Shown here piece by piece: positions 3,223 through 30,352 of a DNA stretch of 34,204 nt; position 1 is the stretch's first letter, and the number at the start of each line of letters is the position of its first letter. Location: assembly GCA_947475845.1 (NCBI GenBank), contig CANJMO010000025.1:1-34204 (forward strand), in the 5' to 3' direction. The translations under genes and the position numbers were made by a program. Source of the DNA: Caulobacteraceae bacterium (GTDB lineage Bacteria; Pseudomonadota; Alphaproteobacteria; Caulobacterales; Caulobacteraceae). The notes under the pieces are model-generated. The model saw only the letters and a list, made by a program, of their open reading frames with translations, made no database searches and was not told the DNA's origin.

Positions 3223-6200
3223 GTGAGCATATCCAGTCCCTTCATCAAGCGCCCCGTGGCGACCTCGCTGATCGCGGCAGCGTTCCTGGTGGTGGGCATC
3301 ATCTGCTTCTTCCAGTTGCCGGTGTCTGCCCTGCCGCAGGTCGATTTCCCGACCATCCAGGTCAGCGCGAATCTGCCCGGCGCCAGCCCCGAGACCATGG
3401 CTTCCAACGTGGCCACGCCGCTGGAGCGGCAGCTGTCGCTGATCCCCGGCGTGACCCAGTTGAGCTCGACTTCGTCGCTCGGGTCGAGCCAGGTGATCCT
3501 GCAGTTCGAGCTCAGCCGCAACATCGACGCCGCCGCCCAGGACGTGCAGGCCGCCGTCAGCGCCGCCAGCGGTCAGCTGCCGACCAACCTTCCGGCGCCG
3601 CCGAACATCCGCAAGGTCAATCCGGCCGATCAGTCGGTGTTCGTGTTCACCATGCGCTCGGACACCCTGCCCCTGCCGGTCATCAACGACTACGCCGACA
3701 ACATCGTCGCCCAACGGCTGTCGCGCATCGACGGTGTGGGGCTGGTCAATATCTTCGGCTCACGTAAGCCGGCGATCCGCATCCAAATCGATCCGCGACG
3801 CGCCGCCGCGCGAGGCCTGCAGCTTGAGCAGATCCGAACGTCGATCGCCGCCAACACCGTCAACGCACCCAAGGGTCAGTTGACCGGGACCGACCGCAAT
3901 CTGACCATCTACGCCAACGACCAGGTGCTGGACGTCGATACCTGGAACAACCTCATCGTCGGCTACAGCAAGGGCGCGCCGATCCGCGTGCGCGACATCG
4001 GCCAGGCGGTCGGGGACGTCGAGAACCGCGTGCAGGGCATGTGGCTGTGGGAAGGGGCGGGCAACACCGAACTGAACCTGAAGACCGGTCCGGCCGTCGT
4101 CGTGGGCGTGACCAAGGCGCCGGGCGCCAACGTGATCCGCACGGTGGAGGCGATCAAGGCTGCGATGCCGGGGATCCGCGCGAACATCCCCTCGACCATC
4201 GATCTGGAAGTCGCGGCCGACCGCACCCGGACCATCCGCGCCTCGGTCCACGACGTCGAGATTACCCTGCTGATCACCATCGCCCTGGTGGTCTCGGTGA
4301 TCTTCCTGTTCCTGCGCAATGTTCGCGCGACCCTGATCCCGAGCGCGGTGATCCCGTTGAGCTTGCTGGCGACGACCGCGGTGATGCTGCCGGCGGGTTT
4401 CAGCCTGGACAACCTGTCCTTGATGGCGATGACCATCGCCGTCGGCTTCGTCGTGGACGACGCCATCGTCATGGTCGAGGCGATCTGGCGGCGGATCGAG
4501 CACGGCGAGAAGCCGTTCCAGGCGGCGCTGAACGGATCGGCGGAAATCGGCGCCACCATCCTGACCATGGGCATCGCCCTGATCGCGGTGTTCACCCCCC
4601 TGATGTTCATGGGCGGCGTGGTCGGCAAGCTGATGCGCGAGTTCGCCCTGACCCTGGCGGCCGCTGTGTTCCTGTCGGTGACCCTGTCGCTGACCTTTAC
4701 CCCGATGCTGTGCGCCAAGTTCCTGAAGCCGCCCGAGCCGCCGAAGAACCCGATCATGAAGGGGCTGGAGACCGGCTTCCACGACCTCGAGAAGAGCTAT
4801 GCCCGGGGGCTGGATGTTGTCATGCGGCACAAGCTGCTGACCATGGCCGTGTTCTTCGCCACCATGATCCTGTCGGTGGTGCTCTATGCCACGGCCAAGA
4901 CCGGCTTCTTCCCACAGCAGGACACCGGCTACATGGGGGGCACGGTCAACACCGCCCAGAACTCCAGCTTCACGCAGCTGCGCGAGAAGGCCATGGCGGT
5001 GTCGGAGATCATGGCCAAGGACCCCGATATCGAGGAACTGCACACCACGATCAACGGCAACAACTCGGCGTCGGCCAATCTCAACTTCGGCCTGCGCACC
5101 CGCGAAGCCGGTCGCCGGTCCACGCCCGACGAGGTCATCGCCCGCCTGCGGCCCAAGGTGGCTCAGGTGGTCGGGACCCAGACCTTCATGCAGGCGGCCC
5201 AGGACATCGTCATCGGCAGAGGCGGGCGGGCGCAATATCAGTACACCCTATCGGACGCCGACCTCGACGAACTGAACGAATGGGCCCCGCGCCTGCTGGA
5301 TGCGCTGCAGAAGCTGCCGCAGCTGAAGGACGTGTCCTCCGACCAGCAGTCGGGCGCCGAGTCCGCCACCCTGACCATCGACCGCGATGCGGCGGGGCGG
5401 TTCGGCCTGTCGCCCGCCGACATCGACGCGGCGATCTACAATCAGGTCGGCCAGCGCCAGGTGGCGCAGTACTTCACCCAGCTCAATTCCTACCGCGTGA
5501 TCCTGGAGGGTCCGCTGGCGATGCAGGCCACCGCGGATGTGTTCGACCATATCTTCATCAATTCGCCGCGCACCGGAAAGCCGGTGCCCCTGTCTCTGCT
5601 GGTCAAGGTCGATACCTCCAAGACCCGCCAGGTGACCATCAGCCACCAGGGCCAGCTGCCGGCGGCGACCCTGTCGTTCAACCTGACCCCCGGCGTCGCG
5701 CTCGGCGACGCCACCAAGGCGATCGAACAAGCCAAGGCCGAGCTCGGCGCGCCGGAGAGCCTGGTCGGCGCTTTCCAGGGCACGGCCCAGGCGTTCCAGG
5801 AGAGCCTGTCGACCATGCCGGTGCTGATCCTGGCGGCGCTGCTGTCGGTCTACATCATCCTGGGCGTGCTCTATGAGAGCTACATCCACCCGCTGACGAT
5901 CCTCTCGACCCTGCCCTCGGCCGGGGTCGGGGCTCTGCTGGCCCTGCGCCTGTCGGGCCAGGACCTGAACGTGATCGGCATCATCGCCATCATCCTGCTG
6001 ATCGGCATCGTCAAGAAGAACGGGATCATGATCGTCGACGTGGCGCTCAAGCTCGAACGCGAGCAGGGGCTCAGTCCGGAAGAGGCGGTGGTGCAGGCCT
6101 CGCATCAGCGGCTTCGACCGATCCTGATGACCACCGCCTGCGCCTTCCTCGGGGGGGTGCCGATGATCCTCAGCCAGGGCACCGGCTCGGAATTCCGCCA

Positions 6201-18621: not shown

Positions 18622-18789
18622 GGCGGTCTCCCGTGACTGATACCGGGCGGACTTAGAGCATTCCCGCCCGCGATTGTCAGCCGGAGGCGTGCTGGCCAAT
18701 GCCCCGGCGAACCGATAGATATGGGGCTGGGTTTTCAGTCCCGACCCAGCCTGTCGGCCACTGCGGCCACCGTCTTTTTGGAAGCGTCC

Positions 18790-19599
18790 ATGCCCCCCGG
18801 CGCGCGATCGATTTTCCAGCGTCTTCTGGGCGCCAAGAACCCGGCGCCGGCGGCGTCCGCCCCGTCCGGCGCGACCCTGTATGTGGTCGGCGATGTGCAC
18901 GGTCGCCTGGACCTGCTGCACCCCCTGCTGCGCAAGATCGCCTTCGACGCCGCCCGTTTCGAGGACGGCGGCGAGCGCGAGCTGATCTTCCTGGGCGACT
19001 ACGTCGATCGCGGGCCGGACTCGCGCGGGGTGATCAACCTGATTCTGTCGACCATGGCGGAGCGGGAATTCTGGACGGTGACGCCGTTGAAGGGCAATCA
19101 CGAGGCGGCGCTGCTGGGTTTCATGGACGACCCGACCTCCTGGCCCGGCTGGTCGCAGTTCGGCGCGCGCGAGACCCTGTCGTCCTATGGCGTCGATCCG
19201 CCGGACTGGGCCGCCGGCGAAGAGGATTGGACCCGCGCCAGCCGTGAGCTGAACGCCGCGGTGCCCCTCGAACACAAAAGCTTCCTGCACGGGCTGGAGC
19301 TGGCGACCGAGCGCGGCGACTATCTGTTCGCCCACGCCGGGGTGCGTCCCAACGTGCCCCTGGATATGCAGACCGAGCAGGACCTGCTGTGGATTCGCGA
19401 CGATTTCCTGAGGAGCGAACGGCGGCTGGACAAGGTGATCGTGCACGGACACACCCCGGCCGAGGAAGCCTATCTGGGCGAACACCGGATCGGACTCGAC
19501 ACCGGGGCCTATGCCACCAACGTGCTGACCGCGGTCAAGCTGAAGGGGACGGACCGCACCCTGATTCAGGTGCGCGGACCCGAGGACGACAAGCCCTAG
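18790..19599 (+). CDS. Serine/threonine-type metallophosphatase
   Basis: 269 residues with ATG 18790 as preferred start; an upstream ATG at 18721 would add 23 residues that do not look like part of the fold. The metallophosphoesterase motifs are in order: GDVHGR (34-39), GDYVDRG (69-75), GNHE (102-105), a histidine in YLFAHAGVRP and VHGHTP near 217. This is the bacterial PPP/PrpA or diadenosine tetraphosphatase-like class with a two-metal centre, acting on phosphoproteins or nucleotides. A Pro/Ala linker precedes the catalytic domain. Its stop codon directly abuts the stop of the convergent membrane-protein gene. Confidence 0.88.
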   Translation: MPPGARSIFQRLLGAKNPAPAASAPSGATLYVVGDVHGRLDLLHPLLRKIAFDAARFEDGGERELIFLGDYVDRGPDSRGVINLILSTMAEREFWTVTPLKGNHEAALLGFMDDPTSWPGWSQFGARETLSSYGVDPPDWAAGEEDWTRASRELNAAVPLEHKSFLHGLELATERGDYLFAHAGVRPNVPLDMQTEQDLLWIRDDFLRSERRLDKVIVHGHTPAEEAYLGEHRIGLDTGAYATNVLTAVKLKGTDRTLIQVRGPEDDKP

Positions 19600-20091
19600 C
19601 TACTGCACCGTGAAGCCGATCCAGCGGCCGAGCACCACCACCGCGATCCAGAACAGCAACGACAGGGCGCCAGCGACCCGCGCCGCGACAGGCGTGATGG
19701 CGTCGTTGTCCCAGCGTTCGACGTCGCGATAGGTGAGGAAATGGAACAGCAGCATGTTGGCCCCGGCAAGCAGCAGCATCACCATCTTGGCGCAGAACTC
19801 CCAATTGGCCAGGTAATGGGTGGCGCGCGAGGTGAACAGCAGGCCGCCGGTGATCAGGGCCATGACGAAGGCGCCCCAGGTGACCGGCAGGACGTCGTTG
19901 CTGAGCCGGCTGACCGAACGGTTGCGCGAGGCGACCCCCAGCAGGCGCAGGTCGACGATGGCCACGGTGCCGACCACGATCACCAGGAAGAAGACGTGGA
20001 TCGACTCGATGGTGGGGAAAGCCCAGGTCGAGCCGGATATGAACTGGCCGACCACCGAGGCCTCGACCCATTGGCAAAAGGCGAGAAGCAT
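19600..20091 (-). CDS. Four-helix membrane protein, DUF6644-like, copy B
   Basis: 163 residues from ATG 20091, which has GAGGGCG at a suitable distance upstream; longer frames would overlap the upstream gene. Four hydrophobic helices are predicted at about 20-50, 65-90, 100-120 and 135-160. The first carries a histidine in PTIESIHVFFL, followed by the loop VAIVDLRLLGVASRNRSVSRL. A second conserved site is WEFCAKMVMLLLAGANMLLFH. It is clearly a paralog of the gene just upstream (QSVHILAI, VIMVDLRLLGL). The layout resembles a family I recall as DUF6644; function is unknown. The in-membrane histidine could bind heme or a quinone, which is speculation. Confidence 0.75.
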   Translation of the reverse strand: MLLAFCQWVEASVVGQFISGSTWAFPTIESIHVFFLVIVVGTVAIVDLRLLGVASRNRSVSRLSNDVLPVTWGAFVMALITGGLLFTSRATHYLANWEFCAKMVMLLLAGANMLLFHFLTYRDVERWDNDAITPVAARVAGALSLLFWIAVVVLGRWIGFTVQ

Positions 20092-20105
20092 CCGATTCAC
20101 CGCCC

Positions 20106-20609
20106 TCACCCGTGCTCGACGTAGGCGATCCAGCGACCGCAGCCGACGATCGCGCTCCACACCACGAGCGAGGCGATGGCGGTGGCCACCGCCGCGCGGC
20201 GGCGACCGGGCGACAGGTCCCAGAATTCCATGTTGCGGCGGACCATCTCCTGGAACACGGCGGTCAGGACGATGGCCACGATCAGCAGCGCCATCTTGGC
20301 CTGGAACACCCCGTTAAGCAGGTCGCGGCGCGGCTCGGCGGTGATCAGGATGAGCCCCGAGATCAGCAGCACCACCAGCGACCACCAGACCCAGGGGATG
20401 AAGCGGCGGGTCAGGCCGGAGATCGACTGGCTGTGGCCCATCAGGCCGAGCAGTCGCAGATCGACCATGATCACCGAGGACATGACGATGGCGATGGCCA
20501 GGATGTGCACCGACTGCACCGCCGGAATGATCCAGGCCACGGTCTGGAAGGTCATGCTGATCGGCGTCATCGACAGCCAATCACTGAATTTCCCGATTTC
20601 GGCCAGCAT
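20106..20609 (-). CDS. Four-helix membrane protein, DUF6644-like, copy A
   Basis: 167 residues from ATG 20609 with a strong AGGAGG ribosome binding site. Same plan as the next gene: an N-terminal amphipathic part (FSDWLSMTPIS), helix 1 with PAVQSVHILAIAI, the loop VIMVDLRLLGLMGHSQSISGL, then WVWWSLVVLLISGLILI, NGVFQAKMALLIVAI and a final helix ending GRWIAYV. The shared residues between the copies (S-x-H, DLRLLG, S-x-S-x-L, AKM, GRWI) mark the family core. The two genes are 14 bases apart and surely co-transcribed, so a heterodimer in the inner membrane is plausible. Confidence 0.78.
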   Translation of the reverse strand: MLAEIGKFSDWLSMTPISMTFQTVAWIIPAVQSVHILAIAIVMSSVIMVDLRLLGLMGHSQSISGLTRRFIPWVWWSLVVLLISGLILITAEPRRDLLNGVFQAKMALLIVAIVLTAVFQEMVRRNMEFWDLSPGRRRAAVATAIASLVVWSAIVGCGRWIAYVEHG

Positions 20610-20730: not shown

Positions 20731-21987
20731 TCAGTCGAGGCTATCGGCCTTGCGCAGGTCCGGGAACAGCACGGCCCACAGGCCGGTGACGCCGAGGGAG
20801 GCGAGGCCGCCAAACAGGGTGGCGCCGACCGCGCCCATCAGGCGGGCGATGACGCCGCTCTCGAATTCGCCCAGTTCGTTGCTGGCGCCGATGAACAGGT
20901 AGGAGACCGCTCCGACACGGCCACGCATCTCGTTGGGCGTGGCGATCTGCACCAGGCTCTGACGCACGAACACCGAGATCATGTCGCTGGCGCCTAGCAG
21001 GGCGAGGACGGCGGCGCTGAGCCACAGCGAGCGCGACAGGGCGAAGACGACGGTGCACAGGCCGAAGGCGGCGACGCCCAGCAGCATCTTGACCCCAGCG
21101 TGGCGCTTGATCGGCCGGGCGGTCAGGATCATGGCCACGATCACCCCGCCGATGGCGGGCGAGGCGCGCAGGATGCCGAAACCCTGCGAGCCGACCTGGA
21201 GGATGTCGCGGGCGAACACCGGCAGCAGGGCCGTGGCCCCGCCAAGCAGGACCGCGAACAGATCGAGCGAGATGGCCCCGAGGACGATCTTGTTGGTCCA
21301 CAGATAGTTCAGACCTTCCTTGATCTGGGTCATGCGCGAGGCGCCCTGGGCGCCGACCTGGGGCGGCGAGGCGAAGCCAGACAGTACGATCAATGAGGCG
21401 ACGAACATGCCCGCCGCCACGCCGAAGGCGACCGTGGCCGAGGCCGCCACCAGCAGGCCGCCGATGGCCGGGCCGACCACCGAGGCCAACTGCCAGGACA
21501 GGGAGTTCATGGCGATGGCGCGCGGCAGCAGGGGCCGCGGCACCAGGGTCGGACCGAGGGCGGCGGAAGCCGGGGAATAGAAGGCCCGGGCCGTGCCGAA
21601 CACGGCGCCCAGGGCGTAGATCGGCCACAGAGCGGTAACCTCGAAATGGGCGAGGACGGCGAAGGCCACGGCGGAGACGAACTCCACCACCAGGCAGACG
21701 ATCATGATGATGCGGCGGTCGACCCGGTCGGCGGTTTCGCCGGCCAGCAAGGCGAAGGCGAACATCGGCAGGAACTGGGCGAGGCCGAGCATGCCGACGG
21801 CGAAGGCGCCTTGCGCGATGGTGCCGGTGAGGCGGGCCACGGCATAGACGTGCCAGCCAAGCGCGATGGATTCGATCTGGGTCGCCAGATTGGCCACCAG
21901 CCGACTGGACCACATCATGACGAACGCCCGCTCGCGCAACAGGGCGCGCAGGGTCGTGGCGTCAATGGGCGGCGATTCGGCCGTCAT
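20731..21987 (-). CDS. MFS transporter, EntS/MFS_3-like exporter
   Basis: 418 residues from ATG 21987. Twelve hydrophobic helices are predicted. The start has the typical MFS_3 features (FVMMWSSRLVANLATQIESIALGWHVY), followed by GETADRVDRRIIMIVCLVVE as the cytoplasmic loop 2-3 signature, and a central loop around GASRMTQIKEGLNYLWTNK. This subfamily includes the enterobactin exporter EntS and several drug exporters, so export of a small molecule driven by protons is likely. The substrate cannot be read from the sequence. It points the same way as the four-helix pair but is separated by about 120 bases. Confidence 0.88.
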   Translation of the reverse strand: MTAESPPIDATTLRALLRERAFVMMWSSRLVANLATQIESIALGWHVYAVARLTGTIAQGAFAVGMLGLAQFLPMFAFALLAGETADRVDRRIIMIVCLVVEFVSAVAFAVLAHFEVTALWPIYALGAVFGTARAFYSPASAALGPTLVPRPLLPRAIAMNSLSWQLASVVGPAIGGLLVAASATVAFGVAAGMFVASLIVLSGFASPPQVGAQGASRMTQIKEGLNYLWTNKIVLGAISLDLFAVLLGGATALLPVFARDILQVGSQGFGILRASPAIGGVIVAMILTARPIKRHAGVKMLLGVAAFGLCTVVFALSRSLWLSAAVLALLGASDMISVFVRQSLVQIATPNEMRGRVGAVSYLFIGASNELGEFESGVIARLMGAVGATLFGGLASLGVTGLWAVLFPDLRKADSLD

Positions 21988-22088
21988 CCGGCCGTTTCCG
22001 GGCGGGAATTCAGGCTTTTAGCGATGGATTTCGAGCAGTTCGGCATGGCCGGGGGCAGTTTGGCCGCTGAATCCTCGCCCCGCAAGGC

Positions 22089-22790
22089 TCAGGCCGCCGC
22101 TCCAGCGGCGCCCTTGGCGGGTTCCACCAGACGTTCGGCGGTGACCGCGCGGATAGCGGCGTGCAGCTTGCTGAGTTCGATCGGCTTGGCCACATGCAGG
22201 TCCATGCCGACGCCGAGGTATTCCTTGACCTGATGAGTCATGGCGTTGGCCGACAGGGCGATGATCGGGATGCGGCGTCCGCCGTCCATCTGGGCCTCGG
22301 CCGCACGGATCGCCTGGGTGGCGGCGACGCCGTCCATAACCGGCATCTGGATATCCATCAGGATCAGGTCGAAATCGCCGTCGGCCCAGGCGTCCACCGC
22401 CTGACGGCCGTCGGCGACCATGGTCATGTCGACGCCGAAGGTCTGCATGATCGTGCGCAGGACCAACTGGTTGGTGGCGTTGTCCTCGGCGGCCAGGACA
22501 CGCAGGGGCCGCTCGCCGCCGGGCTCGCCCGCCGCAGCGGCGATGGCGTTGGCGACGCGCGGCCGGGGCATGGACGCGACGGCCTGAGCCCGCGGCAGGG
22601 GCGCGATCAGGTGGAAGGCGGAGCCCTCGCCCTCCTGGCTCTCGACCCAGATGCGTCCGCCCATCAGGCCGGCCAACTCGCGGCAGATCGCGAGGCCGAG
22701 GCCGGTGCCGCCGAAGCGGCGGGTGGTGGAGCTGTCGACCTGGGTGAACTTCTGGAACAGCAGCGGAGCCTTCTCCGCCGGGATGCCGAT
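22089..22790 (-). pseudogene. Hybrid histidine kinase, 5'-truncated (end of ATPase domain plus receiver)
   Basis: The frame can be followed from the TGA at 22089 upstream to about 22790. It reads IPAEKAPLLFQKFTQVDSS, TRRFGGTGLGLAICRELAGLMGG (F and G2 boxes of the HATPase domain), GSAFHLIAPL, and then a complete receiver domain: RVLAAEDNATNQLVL, LILMDIQMPVMDG with the phosphoacceptor Asp, IIALSANAM and the switch lysine in HVAKPIEL. The HisKA domain, the N and G1 boxes and all sensor parts are missing: at about 22790 the sequence changes to a plus-strand gene. It cannot be a working kinase. An internal ATG at 22676 could still make a receiver protein. Confidence 0.85.
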
Positions 22791-23025
22791 GGGCGCGGCG
22801 ATGATGCTGCAGGCGCTGGGCCTTAGCTTCCACGCAGCCTATTTCAACGCCGACAAGGCCGAGATCGACCAATACACCCTGTATTTCTACGTCATGGGTA
22901 AGAACATCTCGAGCGCGGCCATGCTGCTGGTGCTGATCATCGGCACCTTGTTCACCTGGCGCGCCCGCAACCGCGCCCTGGGCGGTAAGGCCGACCCGGC
23001 CATAGGCGAACAGGCTCCCGCCTAG
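22783..23025 (+). pseudogene. C-terminal fragment of an unidentified membrane protein
   Basis: The frame ending in TAG 23023-23025 has good coding character back to about 22790: LQALGLSFHAAYF, then ADKAEIDQYTLYFYVMGKN, a hydrophobic helix SAAMLLVLIIGTLFTW and a basic, charged tail (RARNRALGGKADP). This is the typical end of a polytopic membrane protein, with one transmembrane helix followed by a cytoplasmic tail. Upstream the frame runs into the antisense of the kinase gene. The formal ATG at 22783 is inside the junction. I do not recognise the family. Confidence 0.6.
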
Positions 23026-23036
23026 GGGCCTGAGCT

Positions 23037-23600
23037 CTAGGCGAAAAGCTCCGGCCGGCGGCTGCGCAGCGCCAGTATCATCGCCAGCGTCTTCAGGTCG
23101 CGGATTTCGCCAGAGTCGGCCAACCGCGCCAGGTCCGCCAACGGCAGTTCCAGCACTTCGATCTGCTCGTTCTCCCCCTCAGCCCCTCCCCCCGCTTCGA
23201 TCCGGTCGGCGGCGGCGTAGGGCGCCAGATAAAGGCTGATCGCCTCGCTGGAGGCGCCCGGCGCGGCGTAGCAGCGGCCGAGCGCCTCAAGCTGCATCAC
23301 CCTCAAGCCCAGCTCTTCCATGGCTTCGCGGCGGGCGGCGACGTCGGGGGTCTCGCCCTTGTCGATGATGCCGGCGCAGGCTTCCAGGATGGTCGGGTCC
23401 TCGCCGTTGAACATCGGCCCCGGCCGCGGCAGGCGGCAGACCAGGGCGACGCGGCGGGCGGGATCATAGGGCAGGACGCAGGACGCCTGGCCGTGATCCT
23501 CCATCTGCCGCCGGGTGACGACGCCGTTGGCCAGACGGACGGTCAGCAGGAGGAAGCGGCCCCAGCCTTCGTAAACCGTCTTCTGTTCCACAAGCTGCAT
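23037..23600 (-). CDS. Nudix hydrolase, ADP-ribose/GDP-mannose pyrophosphatase-like
   Basis: 187 residues from ATG 23600 (MQLVEQKTVYEGWGRFL); longer frames add an unrelated N-terminus. The Nudix box is complete: G-IIDKG-E-TPDVAAR-REAMEEL-G-L, which binds the metal and the diphosphate. Upstream segments (ASCVLPYDPARRVALVCRLPRPGP) and YAAPGASSEAISLYLA downstream resemble the NudF/NudK group, which hydrolyses ADP-ribose or GDP-mannose. The end of the gene is 11 bases from the end of the convergent membrane fragment. Confidence 0.88.
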   Translation of the reverse strand: MQLVEQKTVYEGWGRFLLLTVRLANGVVTRRQMEDHGQASCVLPYDPARRVALVCRLPRPGPMFNGEDPTILEACAGIIDKGETPDVAARREAMEELGLRVMQLEALGRCYAAPGASSEAISLYLAPYAAADRIEAGGGAEGENEQIEVLELPLADLARLADSGEIRDLKTLAMILALRSRRPELFA

Positions 23601-23800
23601 GCCGGCCTCCGCGAACCTCTCCCGTGGGATTAGGCGCCCTGGCCGGATGCGTCCATAGCCGATCCTGTGCGTTGAGTGGTTTCGCAACCGGAGACACCCA
23701 TGCCCGCCGCTCTGCATTGCCCACAGGACCCGCTGGCCCTAGCGTGGCCCCGCAGCGGTCGCCGAACGGGCGGCGGCGCCTCGGACACCCATTCCCCCGC

Positions 23801-25315
23801 ATGGTGAAGGCCCGCGCTACCCCCCTGTTCGAGCCCGGCAAGACCTGCTGGCGCGTGGAGACCGCTGACCGAGTCGCGATGCTGGTCGACTCCAAGACCT
23901 ATTTCACCGCCGCCCTGACGGCCATGCGCCGGGCCAAGCGCTCGATCCTGCTGCTGGGCTGGGGCTTCGATCCCCGCACGCGCCTGAAACCCGACGCTTC
24001 GGGCGAGGAACATGGGCCTGACGAGATCGGCAATCTGCTGATCAAGCTGTCCAAGCAGAGGCCGGACCTGGATATCCACGTCCTGATCTGGAAATCGGCC
24101 CTGCCGGTCAGCGCCTCGCAGAACTTCTTCCCACACAAGGCGCGCAAGTGGTTCACCGGCACGCGGATCAATTTCCAGCTCGACGCCTCAGTGCCGTTCG
24201 GCGCCTGCCACCACCAGAAGGTGCTGGTGATCGACGACGCGGTGGCCTTCTGCGGCGGCGGCGATTTCGGCGTCGACCGCTGGGATTCGCAATCGCACCT
24301 GGACGAGGACAAGCGGCGGACCATGCCCGGCGGCGTGCAGCACGCGCCGCGCCACGAAGTGATGATGATGGTCGACGGCGCGGCGGCCCAGGCCTTGGGT
24401 GAACTGGCGCGCGAGCGCTGGCGCACGTCGCAGGAATGCCGCGACCTGCCGCCGCCGGCGGCGGCGCTGGTGGAGGGCGCCGACCCCTGGCCGCCCTATA
24501 TCCAGCCTCACTTCGAGACGGTGCGCATCGCCATCGCCCGCACCGAGCCGGACTGGCGCGAGCGCAAGGAAATCCGCGAGACCGAGGCCCTGCACCTCAG
24601 GGCCATCGAAGGCGCCAAGAAGACCATCTATCTGGAGAACCAGTACTTCACCTCGGTGATCATCGGTGAGGCCCTGGCCAAACGGTTGGCTGAGCCGGAC
24701 GGGCCGGAGGTGGTGCTGATCTCGACCCTGCACAGCCCCAGCTATTTCGACCGCTGGACCATGGACCGCACTCGTTGGAGGCTGGTGGAGCGCCTGCGCC
24801 GGGCCGACGTGCACGGCTGCTTCCGCTCCTATTGTCCGCATACGTCCGAAGGCCATCCGATCATCGTCCACTCCAAGGTGACGATCATTGACGACCACCT
24901 GCTGCGGGCGGGATCGACCAATATCAACCACCGCTCCGCCGGGTTCGATACCGAGTGCGACCTGGCGCTGGAAGCCGACAACGCGGCCTCCCGCGCGGCC
25001 GTGACCGCCTTTCGCACGCATCTGATCCACCACTATCTCGGGGTGCCGATGGCCCAGGTGCAGGCGGCGATCGACGCGGCCGGCGGCCTGCTCGGTCCGG
25101 CCATCGACGCGATCAACACCGGCCGCCTGGTGGTGCTGCCCAAGGCCAAGATGGGCCCGCTGGCGGCGGTGGTCGCCGCCTATCACTTGGGCGACCCGGT
25201 GCGACCGTCGGACTCGTTCTTTCCGCTGAAGCGCCACCGGCGGCTGGCGGCCTACGAGCACGCCCTGGACCGCGCGGCGGCGGCCGGATCAGGTAAAGCT
25301 GAAATCGACCACTAG
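23801..25315 (+). CDS. Phospholipase D / cardiolipin synthase family enzyme
   Basis: 504 residues from ATG 23801; the frame is open to 23624 but the extra 59 residues look non-coding. Two HKD catalytic motifs are present: H138-x-K140-x4-D145 (HHQKVLVIDD) with GGGDFGVDRWD after it, and H357-x-K359-x4-D364 (HSKVTIIDD) with AGSTNINHRSAG after it. Each half gives one half of the PLD active site, which forms a phosphohistidine intermediate. The enzyme probably acts on phospholipids as phospholipase D or phosphatidyltransferase. There is no N-terminal membrane anchor of the Cls type, so it is likely soluble or peripheral. The gene runs 27 bases into the convergent EEP-family gene. Confidence 0.92.
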   Translation: MVKARATPLFEPGKTCWRVETADRVAMLVDSKTYFTAALTAMRRAKRSILLLGWGFDPRTRLKPDASGEEHGPDEIGNLLIKLSKQRPDLDIHVLIWKSALPVSASQNFFPHKARKWFTGTRINFQLDASVPFGACHHQKVLVIDDAVAFCGGGDFGVDRWDSQSHLDEDKRRTMPGGVQHAPRHEVMMMVDGAAAQALGELARERWRTSQECRDLPPPAAALVEGADPWPPYIQPHFETVRIAIARTEPDWRERKEIRETEALHLRAIEGAKKTIYLENQYFTSVIIGEALAKRLAEPDGPEVVLISTLHSPSYFDRWTMDRTRWRLVERLRRADVHGCFRSYCPHTSEGHPIIVHSKVTIIDDHLLRAGSTNINHRSAGFDTECDLALEADNAASRAAVTAFRTHLIHHYLGVPMAQVQAAIDAAGGLLGPAIDAINTGRLVVLPKAKMGPLAAVVAAYHLGDPVRPSDSFFPLKRHRRLAAYEHALDRAAAAGSGKAEIDH

Positions 25316-26020
25316 GGGCAGGTGGTCGGAGGCGACCCGGGCCAGGGGCGCGGCGTAGGCCTCGATATGGTCGATCGCTATGCCGCCCGAGACGAACACA
25401 TGGTCGATGGCGAGCATGGGGAAGCGCGACGGGAAGGTCGGGCTGGCTCGCGCGCCCTTGCACAGCGCCCGCGAGTCCTTCAGGCAGCGCGCCAGGGTGC
25501 GATAGGTCGAAGCGTAGGGGGTGGCGTTGAAGTCGCCCAGCATGATCAGGGGATCGCGACGGTCGCGGTGGCCGATCCAGTCGGGGCCCGCCAGGGCCTT
25601 GGCCTGAGCCCGCTGCTCGTGCGGCAATAAGCCGAGGTGGGTGTTGATCACCTGAAGGCTGCGGCCGCCGATCTCGATTTCAAGCCAAAGCGCGCCCCTG
25701 GGCTCAAGACCTCGGATCGAAGGGGAATTGGGCAGGGGGCCGGCGCGGATCACCTTGAGCGGGCAAGGGGTCAGAATGGCGTCGCCGTAGCGTTCCTCCT
25801 CGACTTTCATGGCGGCGTGGAAGTGAAAGGCCATGCCCAGGCGGTTGGCGATGGCGTGAGCCTGATCGACCGCGCCAGTGCGCAGGCGGCCGACGTCGAG
25901 TTCCTGCAGGGCGACGATATCCGGACGGCACTGGGCGATCACCGCCGCGATGCGGCCCACGTCCAGCTGGCCGTCGACGCCGACGCAGCGATGGACATTG
26001 TAGGTCATGATGCGGGGCAT
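25289..26020 (-). CDS. Endonuclease/exonuclease/phosphatase (EEP) family hydrolase
   Basis: 243 residues from ATG 26020. EEP-fold motifs in order: MTYNVHR (metal-site asparagine), DIVALQELD (catalytic Glu), INTHLGLLPHEQRAQA, LGDFNATP and SDHLPLVVDF (catalytic His). Members include Mg-dependent nucleases, sphingomyelinase-like enzymes and inositol phosphatases. The tight convergent pairing with a PLD-family gene suggests a role in lipid head-group turnover, but this is inference. No signal peptide is seen. Confidence 0.88.
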   Translation of the reverse strand: MPRIMTYNVHRCVGVDGQLDVGRIAAVIAQCRPDIVALQELDVGRLRTGAVDQAHAIANRLGMAFHFHAAMKVEEERYGDAILTPCPLKVIRAGPLPNSPSIRGLEPRGALWLEIEIGGRSLQVINTHLGLLPHEQRAQAKALAGPDWIGHRDRRDPLIMLGDFNATPYASTYRTLARCLKDSRALCKGARASPTFPSRFPMLAIDHVFVSGGIAIDHIEAYAAPLARVASDHLPLVVDFSFT

Positions 26021-29348: not shown

Positions 29349-29753
29349 ATGCCGCCTGCCGACGACCCCATGACCATGGCTGCCGAGGCCGCGCCTCACC
29401 ATGTGCTGGTGGTGGAGGACGAGGCCCTGGTGCGGCTGCTGGTGGTGCAGGTGCTGGAAGAGGCTGGCTATGTGGTGCGCGAAGCCGCCGAGGCGGGCAG
29501 CGCCCTAGCGCTGGTGGGATCCGGCGTCCGGATCGACCTGATGGTCACCGACGTCGGCCTGCCCGGCGTCAACGGCCGCGTCCTGGCCGATCAGGCGCGG
29601 GCGATCCGCCCGGACCTGAGGGTGCTGTTCATGACCGGCTATGCCGACAGCGAGGTGCTGGAAGCGGTGATGCCGGACGGCTTCGGCCTGATCACCAAGC
29701 CGTTCGACCTGGACGACTTGGCGGCGACGGTCGCGGGGCTGATTGAGGGCTAG
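29349..29753 (+). CDS. Single-domain response regulator (CheY/receiver type)
   Basis: 134 residues from ATG 29349 (GGAG seven bases upstream). Only a receiver domain: VLVVEDEA (acidic pocket D24), phosphoacceptor D68 in [11 protein letters not shown]96 in FMTGYAD and K117 in ITKPFD. There is no output domain, so it must act by binding a partner or passing phosphate on. It follows the hybrid kinase gene in the same direction by 137 bases and is likely its partner. Its stop overlaps the stop of recR on the other strand. Confidence 0.92.
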
Positions 29754-30352
29754 GCCGGCCGCCGGGCGCGCAGGGCCGTGGCGATGGTGCCGTCGTCGAG
29801 CCAGTCGAGCTCGCCGCCGACCGGGACGCCGCGGGCGAGGCTGGTCACCTGGACGCCGAGGCCGGCGAGGTGTTCGGAAAGGTAGTGGGCGGTGGTCTGA
29901 CCGTCGACGGTGGCGGGCAGGGCCAGGATCACTTCGCGCACCCGGCCGTCGCCGGCGCGAGCCAGAAGCTCATTGATGCGCAGGGCCTCGGGGCCGACGC
30001 CGTCGAGCGCCGAGAGCAGGCCGCCGAGCACATGGTAGCGGCCGCGGAAGGCGCCGCCGCGCTCCAGCGCCCACAGGCCGCCGACTTCCTCGACCACGCA
30101 CAGCAAGGCGGGGTCGCGGCTGTGGTCGGCGCAGATCGAGCAGGGTTCGGAGGTGTCGAGCGCGCCGCAGGACGAGCAGGCCTTCACCTTGGCTCCGGCG
30201 TCGGCCATGGCCTGGGTCAGGGGGGTGAGGAGCTGGTCCTTGCGCTTGAGCAGGGCCAGGGCGGCGCGGCGCGCGGAGCGGGGCCCGAGGCCCGGCAGCT
30301 TGCCGAGCAGGGCTATGAGTCGTTCGATCTCTGGGCCAGCCGAAGCGGCCAC
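29750..30352 (-). CDS. recR: Recombination protein RecR
   Basis: 200 residues. It works with RecF and RecO to load RecA on gapped DNA. The helix-hairpin-helix ([13 protein letters not shown]) and the four-cysteine zinc finger (C59, C62, C71, C74) are followed by the Toprim domain ([15 protein letters not shown]). The start is GTG 30352; a TAG lies directly in front in the same frame, so this is the first possible start. It has no clear ribosome binding site and sits immediately against a hairpin at 30354-30372. ybaB is the upstream neighbour, as in most bacteria, but dnaX is not. Confidence 0.95.

Follow-up and report, generated by a model that had tools for sequence, protein, structure and literature searches.

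In the 34,204-nt window analysed here, the entire contig C25 of a Caulobacteraceae assembly (GCA_947475845.1; 2.65 Mb in 101 contigs, 98.67% complete), a minus-strand hybrid histidine kinase and a plus-strand membrane protein are both beheaded at positions 22789–22792. This raises the question of whether unrelated pieces of DNA were brought together at this point, whether the DNA between two neighbouring genes was removed, or whether the join exists only in the assembly. The features of the locus are collected in Table 1.

Table 1. Features at and around the breakpoint (window coordinates)
Feature	Position	Strand	Description and basis
Metallophosphatase gene (+) and two DUF6644 genes (−)	18721..20609		Left flank, common to G001 contig C205; Pfam, synteny
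MFS transporter	20731..21987	−	Left neighbour, on the kinase side in G001 and G002 too; Pfam, synteny
Hybrid kinase, C-terminal part	22092..22790	−	End of the ATPase domain and whole receiver; Pfam, compared with the intact G002 orthologue
Deletion breakpoint (probable)	22790..22791		1–2 bp (TG) common to both sides; ungapped comparison with G001 and G002, blastn ends
Small membrane protein, C-terminal ~half	22789..23025	+	tblastn with the full-length G001 protein, residues 84–154
NUDIX hydrolase	23037..23717	−	Right neighbour, adjoins the membrane protein in G001 too; Pfam, synteny
PLD-family protein (+) and endonuclease/exonuclease/phosphatase-like gene (−)	23789..26020		Right flank, common to G001 contig C245; Pfam (PLD), by eye, synteny

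A single breakpoint cuts two divergent genes

The breakpoint was located by comparison with G001 and G002, two relatives of the same genus. Nucleotide similarity to the G001 kinase gene extends through 22790 and that to the G002 kinase gene through 22791, while similarity to the G001 membrane-protein gene starts at 22790 (blastn ends and ungapped comparison). The original prediction, which had both genes truncated at the 5′ end at a single point near 22790, was right to within 2 bases. The bases common to both sides are read from relatives ~80–85% alike in DNA.

On the minus strand, the break falls in the middle of the ATPase domain, as predicted. Specifically, everything before IGIPAEK is lost, the Pfam match to HATPase_c begins only at profile position 47 of 111, and the HisKA phospho-acceptor domain is not found by Pfam in the window fragment, while the Response_reg domain is complete (profile positions 1–111 of 111). 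The orthologue in G002 is intact, with CHASE8, HAMP, HisKA (residues 258–322), HATPase_c and Response_reg all above Pfam cut-offs. The remnant cannot work as a kinase, because it has no phospho-acceptor domain. The plus-strand frame that ends at 23025 corresponds to residues 84–154 of a 162-aa protein of G001 and is the tail of a membrane protein, again in agreement with the prediction.

The two sides are neighbours in relatives

In G001, the kinase (minus), a small gene (plus), the membrane protein (plus) and the NUDIX gene (minus) are adjacent. The G001 kinase spans two abutting contig ends: the part of the kinase that starts at residue 106 lies on contig C205, together with the metallophosphatase gene, both DUF6644 genes and the MFS transporter, and contig C245 starts inside the kinase (first 109 residues, minus) and continues with a 110-aa gene (plus), the 162-aa membrane protein (plus) and the NUDIX gene (minus). 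The two ends have no exact overlap of at least 10 bases; by eye, their 13 terminal bases agree but for one, and together the contigs leave no part of the kinase uncovered. Up to the breakpoint, each flank of the window is colinear with G001 apart from other length differences of gene size. In relatives the order of the two flanks is the same, and additional DNA separates them.

The arrangement is not confined to G001. Kinase (minus), small gene (plus) and membrane protein (plus) stand in this order in all seven regions fetched (G001, G003, G006, G009, G012, G013 and G023), G009 having a second membrane-protein-like copy. A contig search with the kinase remnant as query, from which the best 80 loci were kept, returned mainly paralogues from many phyla; three of these 80 hold the small gene or the membrane protein, and in all three (L076–L078, from Caulobacteraceae, Phenylobacterium and Alphaproteobacteria MAGs) the whole trio is present. 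The kinase forms an open frame of 656–719 codons in G002, G003, G006, G009, G012, G013 and G023; one stop was flagged in each of the matches from G006 and G009, and in G006 it is the stop codon that ends the gene. The NUDIX gene was seen beside the trio only in G001, with NUDIX matches elsewhere in G006, G007, G009 and G012.

Because relatives keep the two sides adjacent, with order and orientation unchanged, one internal deletion explains both truncations. The missing length is ~2.2 kb, made up of 1251 bp from the kinase start to the break (measured in G002) and 951 bp from the kinase start to the membrane-protein break (measured in G001). The prediction had spoken of a junction and had proposed a search for full-length homologues and their order in relatives. 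The comparison shows the ancestral state, and in this sense the refuting case named in the prediction, a relative in which the genes are intact and arranged alike, does exist; the cut of two genes at one point holds, and the notion of unrelated pieces brought together does not. A join of two distant loci, by translocation, at the end of an inversion or through a mobile element, would account for two genes cut 5′ at a single point, but it is contradicted by the synteny, and we reject it as very improbable.

Other length differences in the window

Several further gene-sized differences separate the window from its relatives; each may be a loss or a gain. Relative to G001, the window is without ~0.8 kb between the metallophosphatase gene and a DUF6644 gene (19591–19607) and without ~1.0–1.1 kb between the MFS transporter and the kinase end (22023–22142). 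The latter interval is longer still in G002, by ~1.6 kb relative to the window, and holds there a methyltransferase-like and an SMP-30-like gene (by eye). Between the NUDIX and PLD genes (23600–23824), ~2 kb of G001 are missing, comprising an aldose epimerase (Pfam) and an enolase-superfamily-like gene (by eye); the aldose epimerase had no match in the window's own genome in a search run without a positive control. Between the response regulator and recR (29750–29770), whose ends now overlap, ~0.84 kb are missing, a segment that in G001 holds an alpha/beta-hydrolase-like ORF (by eye). Conversely, the window's DctP gene is missing from G001. Far to the left, at 927–1361, a match to glycoside hydrolase family 130 covers the profile only from position 227 of 320, and an adjoining stretch is low in GC (0.53); this gene is apparently without its beginning and is possibly what the original prediction counted as its first junction.

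The missing DNA is not found elsewhere in the assembly

The statement that neither gene has its beginning anywhere in the window was borne out, as neither part was found there with the first 109 kinase residues and the full membrane protein of G001 as queries. In the whole assembly, the small gene had no match, and the membrane protein had only its C-terminal fragment and one match of E 0.05 on contig C65. The first 416 residues of the G002 kinase gave 17 matches, the best at 51–52% identity; 15 of the 17 start no earlier than residue 214, and the remaining two lie on C76 (26% identity, residues 117–399) and C30 (residues 157–247). The missing DNA was therefore not found elsewhere in an assembly that is 98.67% complete, an absence that is strong but not absolute. 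A short stretch, G000:C29:30138–30269 (L182), is 52% identical to kinase residues 355–398 in an 87-codon frame near a contig end, and is possibly another kinase remnant.

Single-sequence searches of the 40 genomes listed, the window's own among them, recovered the small gene in 16 (none in the window's genome). They recovered the membrane protein in 7, one match being the window's own fragment (6 of 39 relatives). Searches of this kind give lower bounds, the membrane protein of G012 having been missed there and found later. The G001 small protein has no Pfam match and the G006 small protein has a sub-threshold match to Prp19, while the G001 membrane protein has only a sub-threshold match to HupE_UreJ (E 0.0049). 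The small protein of ~100 aa, encoded divergently from the hybrid kinase (L045 632–961 and relatives), is conserved, with 24 invariant columns in an alignment of 9 sequences (alignment A1).

The kinase remnant shows no decay

We compared the kinase remnant with its intact orthologues. It has no internal stop, and its amino-acid identity is 82.1% to G001 and 82.9% to G002, the G001–G002 pair being 82.8% identical. Its dN/dS is 0.22 against G001 and 0.26 against G002, compared with 0.22 for the G001–G002 pair. Decay, taken as a marker of age, was thus not seen in the kinase remnant. The membrane-protein remnant has a dN/dS of 0.83 with G001, and four pairs of G001 with other intact copies give 0.82–1.31 at high divergence; it cannot be used for dating, because it is too short and evolves too fast.

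Since the kinase remnant evolves as slowly as the intact orthologues, the deletion would be young relative to the species split, or be carried by only part of the population, or be an artefact at the level of chimeric reads. The absence of relaxation, with a dN/dS as if the gene were intact, counts against a deletion, for an assembly or read artefact would look alike. We therefore considered that the living genome is intact and that the join stems from a chimeric read or an assembly error. The fragmentation of the assembly into 101 contigs is in keeping with this, and the small gene and both 5′ parts could simply be missing from the assembly. However, only 1–2 bp are common at the join, and there is no k-mer-long repeat between the G001 flanks. 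Moreover, a random chimera would rarely join two sites in the right order and orientation ~2.2 kb apart (by our estimate, ~2.5 kb of ~5.3 Mb positions), and a deletion that arose independently is present at this site in G002, though its assembly is fragmented too. We consider an artefact unlikely; a true deletion is favoured by the absence of a repeat and by the two sides lying in the correct order and orientation. Collapse of a repeat by the assembler was examined as a separate candidate and is unlikely: in addition to the shortness of the shared bases, the longest exact run common to the two 121-bp flanks of G001, which stand in for those of the window, is 8 bp and is out of register.

A further reading is that the truncation was selected, the receiver domain being of use on its own when expressed downstream of the NUDIX gene. 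The completeness of the receiver domain, the low dN/dS and the in-frame TTG at 22676 and ATG at 22664 fit such a reading. So does the lack of a terminator-like site in 22000–23900, which says little: neither promoters nor terminator-like sites were found in this interval, and shuffled sequences average only 0.2 and 0.5, respectively, hence the result is uninformative. But the low dN/dS mostly reflects the time before the deletion, and expression of the receiver is putative only. A stand-alone receiver produced by read-through from NUDIX is possible but unsupported, and we regard selection for it as extremely improbable.

A different deletion at the locus in G002 and the Ku genes

G002 differs at the same point by another and larger change, and its kinase is complete. 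In L062 (G002:C32, 5194–5590), similarity to the G001 kinase upstream region starts only at 5413, and before this position lie a phosphatase-like gene fragment (by eye) and recR. Missing from the G002 locus is everything between the small gene and the response regulator, both included. Three genes (small gene, membrane protein and NUDIX) were tested against the whole of G002, and none is present there. The G002 deletion is independent of that proposed for the window.

A Ku gene is present in the window's genome (G000:C16:29622–30899; L164, L165 and L178). It resembles other Ku proteins up to about residue 223, and the rest of the frame encodes a tail resembling relatives' glycosyltransferases (by eye); for this frame Pfam reports Ku alone. 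In G002 (G002:C80:39390–39671; L177), the match is confined to Ku residues 1–94 and lies within a 517-codon frame that has similar genes next to it. Downstream of Ku, both genomes have a queH-like gene (by eye). Two of the three genus members carry two different Ku truncations.

A more far-reaching reading is a small-genome lineage that loses genes by frequent near-blunt deletions, which altered end joining might drive. The reading draws on two genus mates in which separate events would have taken the same segment on the kinase side, and whose Ku is cut short at different residues beside the same kind of glycosyltransferase-like genes. We regard it as improbable.

DISCUSSION

The locus is probably the product of one ~2.2-kb deletion with 1–2 bp of microhomology, in which two divergent transcription units lost their facing 5′ portions. 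Such a colinear deletion would hit the kinase and the membrane protein together. On the kinase side it would have taken the upstream region, the periplasmic CHASE8 sensor, HAMP, HisKA and the first part of HATPase_c; between the genes, the whole of the conserved small gene; and on the other side, the front half of the membrane protein. The ends would then have been joined with almost no homology. What is left of the kinase would be at most an orphan receiver domain, should transcription read on from NUDIX. We infer that the deletion is present in the living genome, and an end-joining route is the one that the breakpoint suggests. An odd junction is thus resolved as plain gene loss, and the window offers a clean deletion breakpoint in a compact genome. 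In addition, the comparison brings out a trio conserved in this bacterial family, a hybrid kinase, a ~100-aa protein and a small membrane protein, of which the two small ones fall below Pfam cut-offs in the copies tested.

Illegitimate end joining with microhomology proceeds through Ku/LigD or through alternative end joining. The present breakpoint resembles its products in having 1–2 bp common to both sides, and a Ku gene is present in the same genome. In contrast to the Ku/LigD pathway, the Ku found here seems to be without its C-terminal part and is fused to another protein, and because this gene is shortened and fused, Ku-mediated joining is uncertain as the route. Among hybrid histidine kinases of the CHASE8 type, the copy in the window is reduced to the receiver and the end of HATPase_c, whereas the G002 orthologue has all domains.

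With respect to gene loss, the locus is an ordinary, recent, gene-cutting deletion, an instance of known bacterial gene loss and no new system. It is like the deletions and young pseudogenes treated in The Extinction Dynamics of Bacterial Pseudogenes (PMC2916853) in that the disruption is recent and the remnants are undecayed; it differs in that two divergent genes are struck at once and a third is lost altogether.
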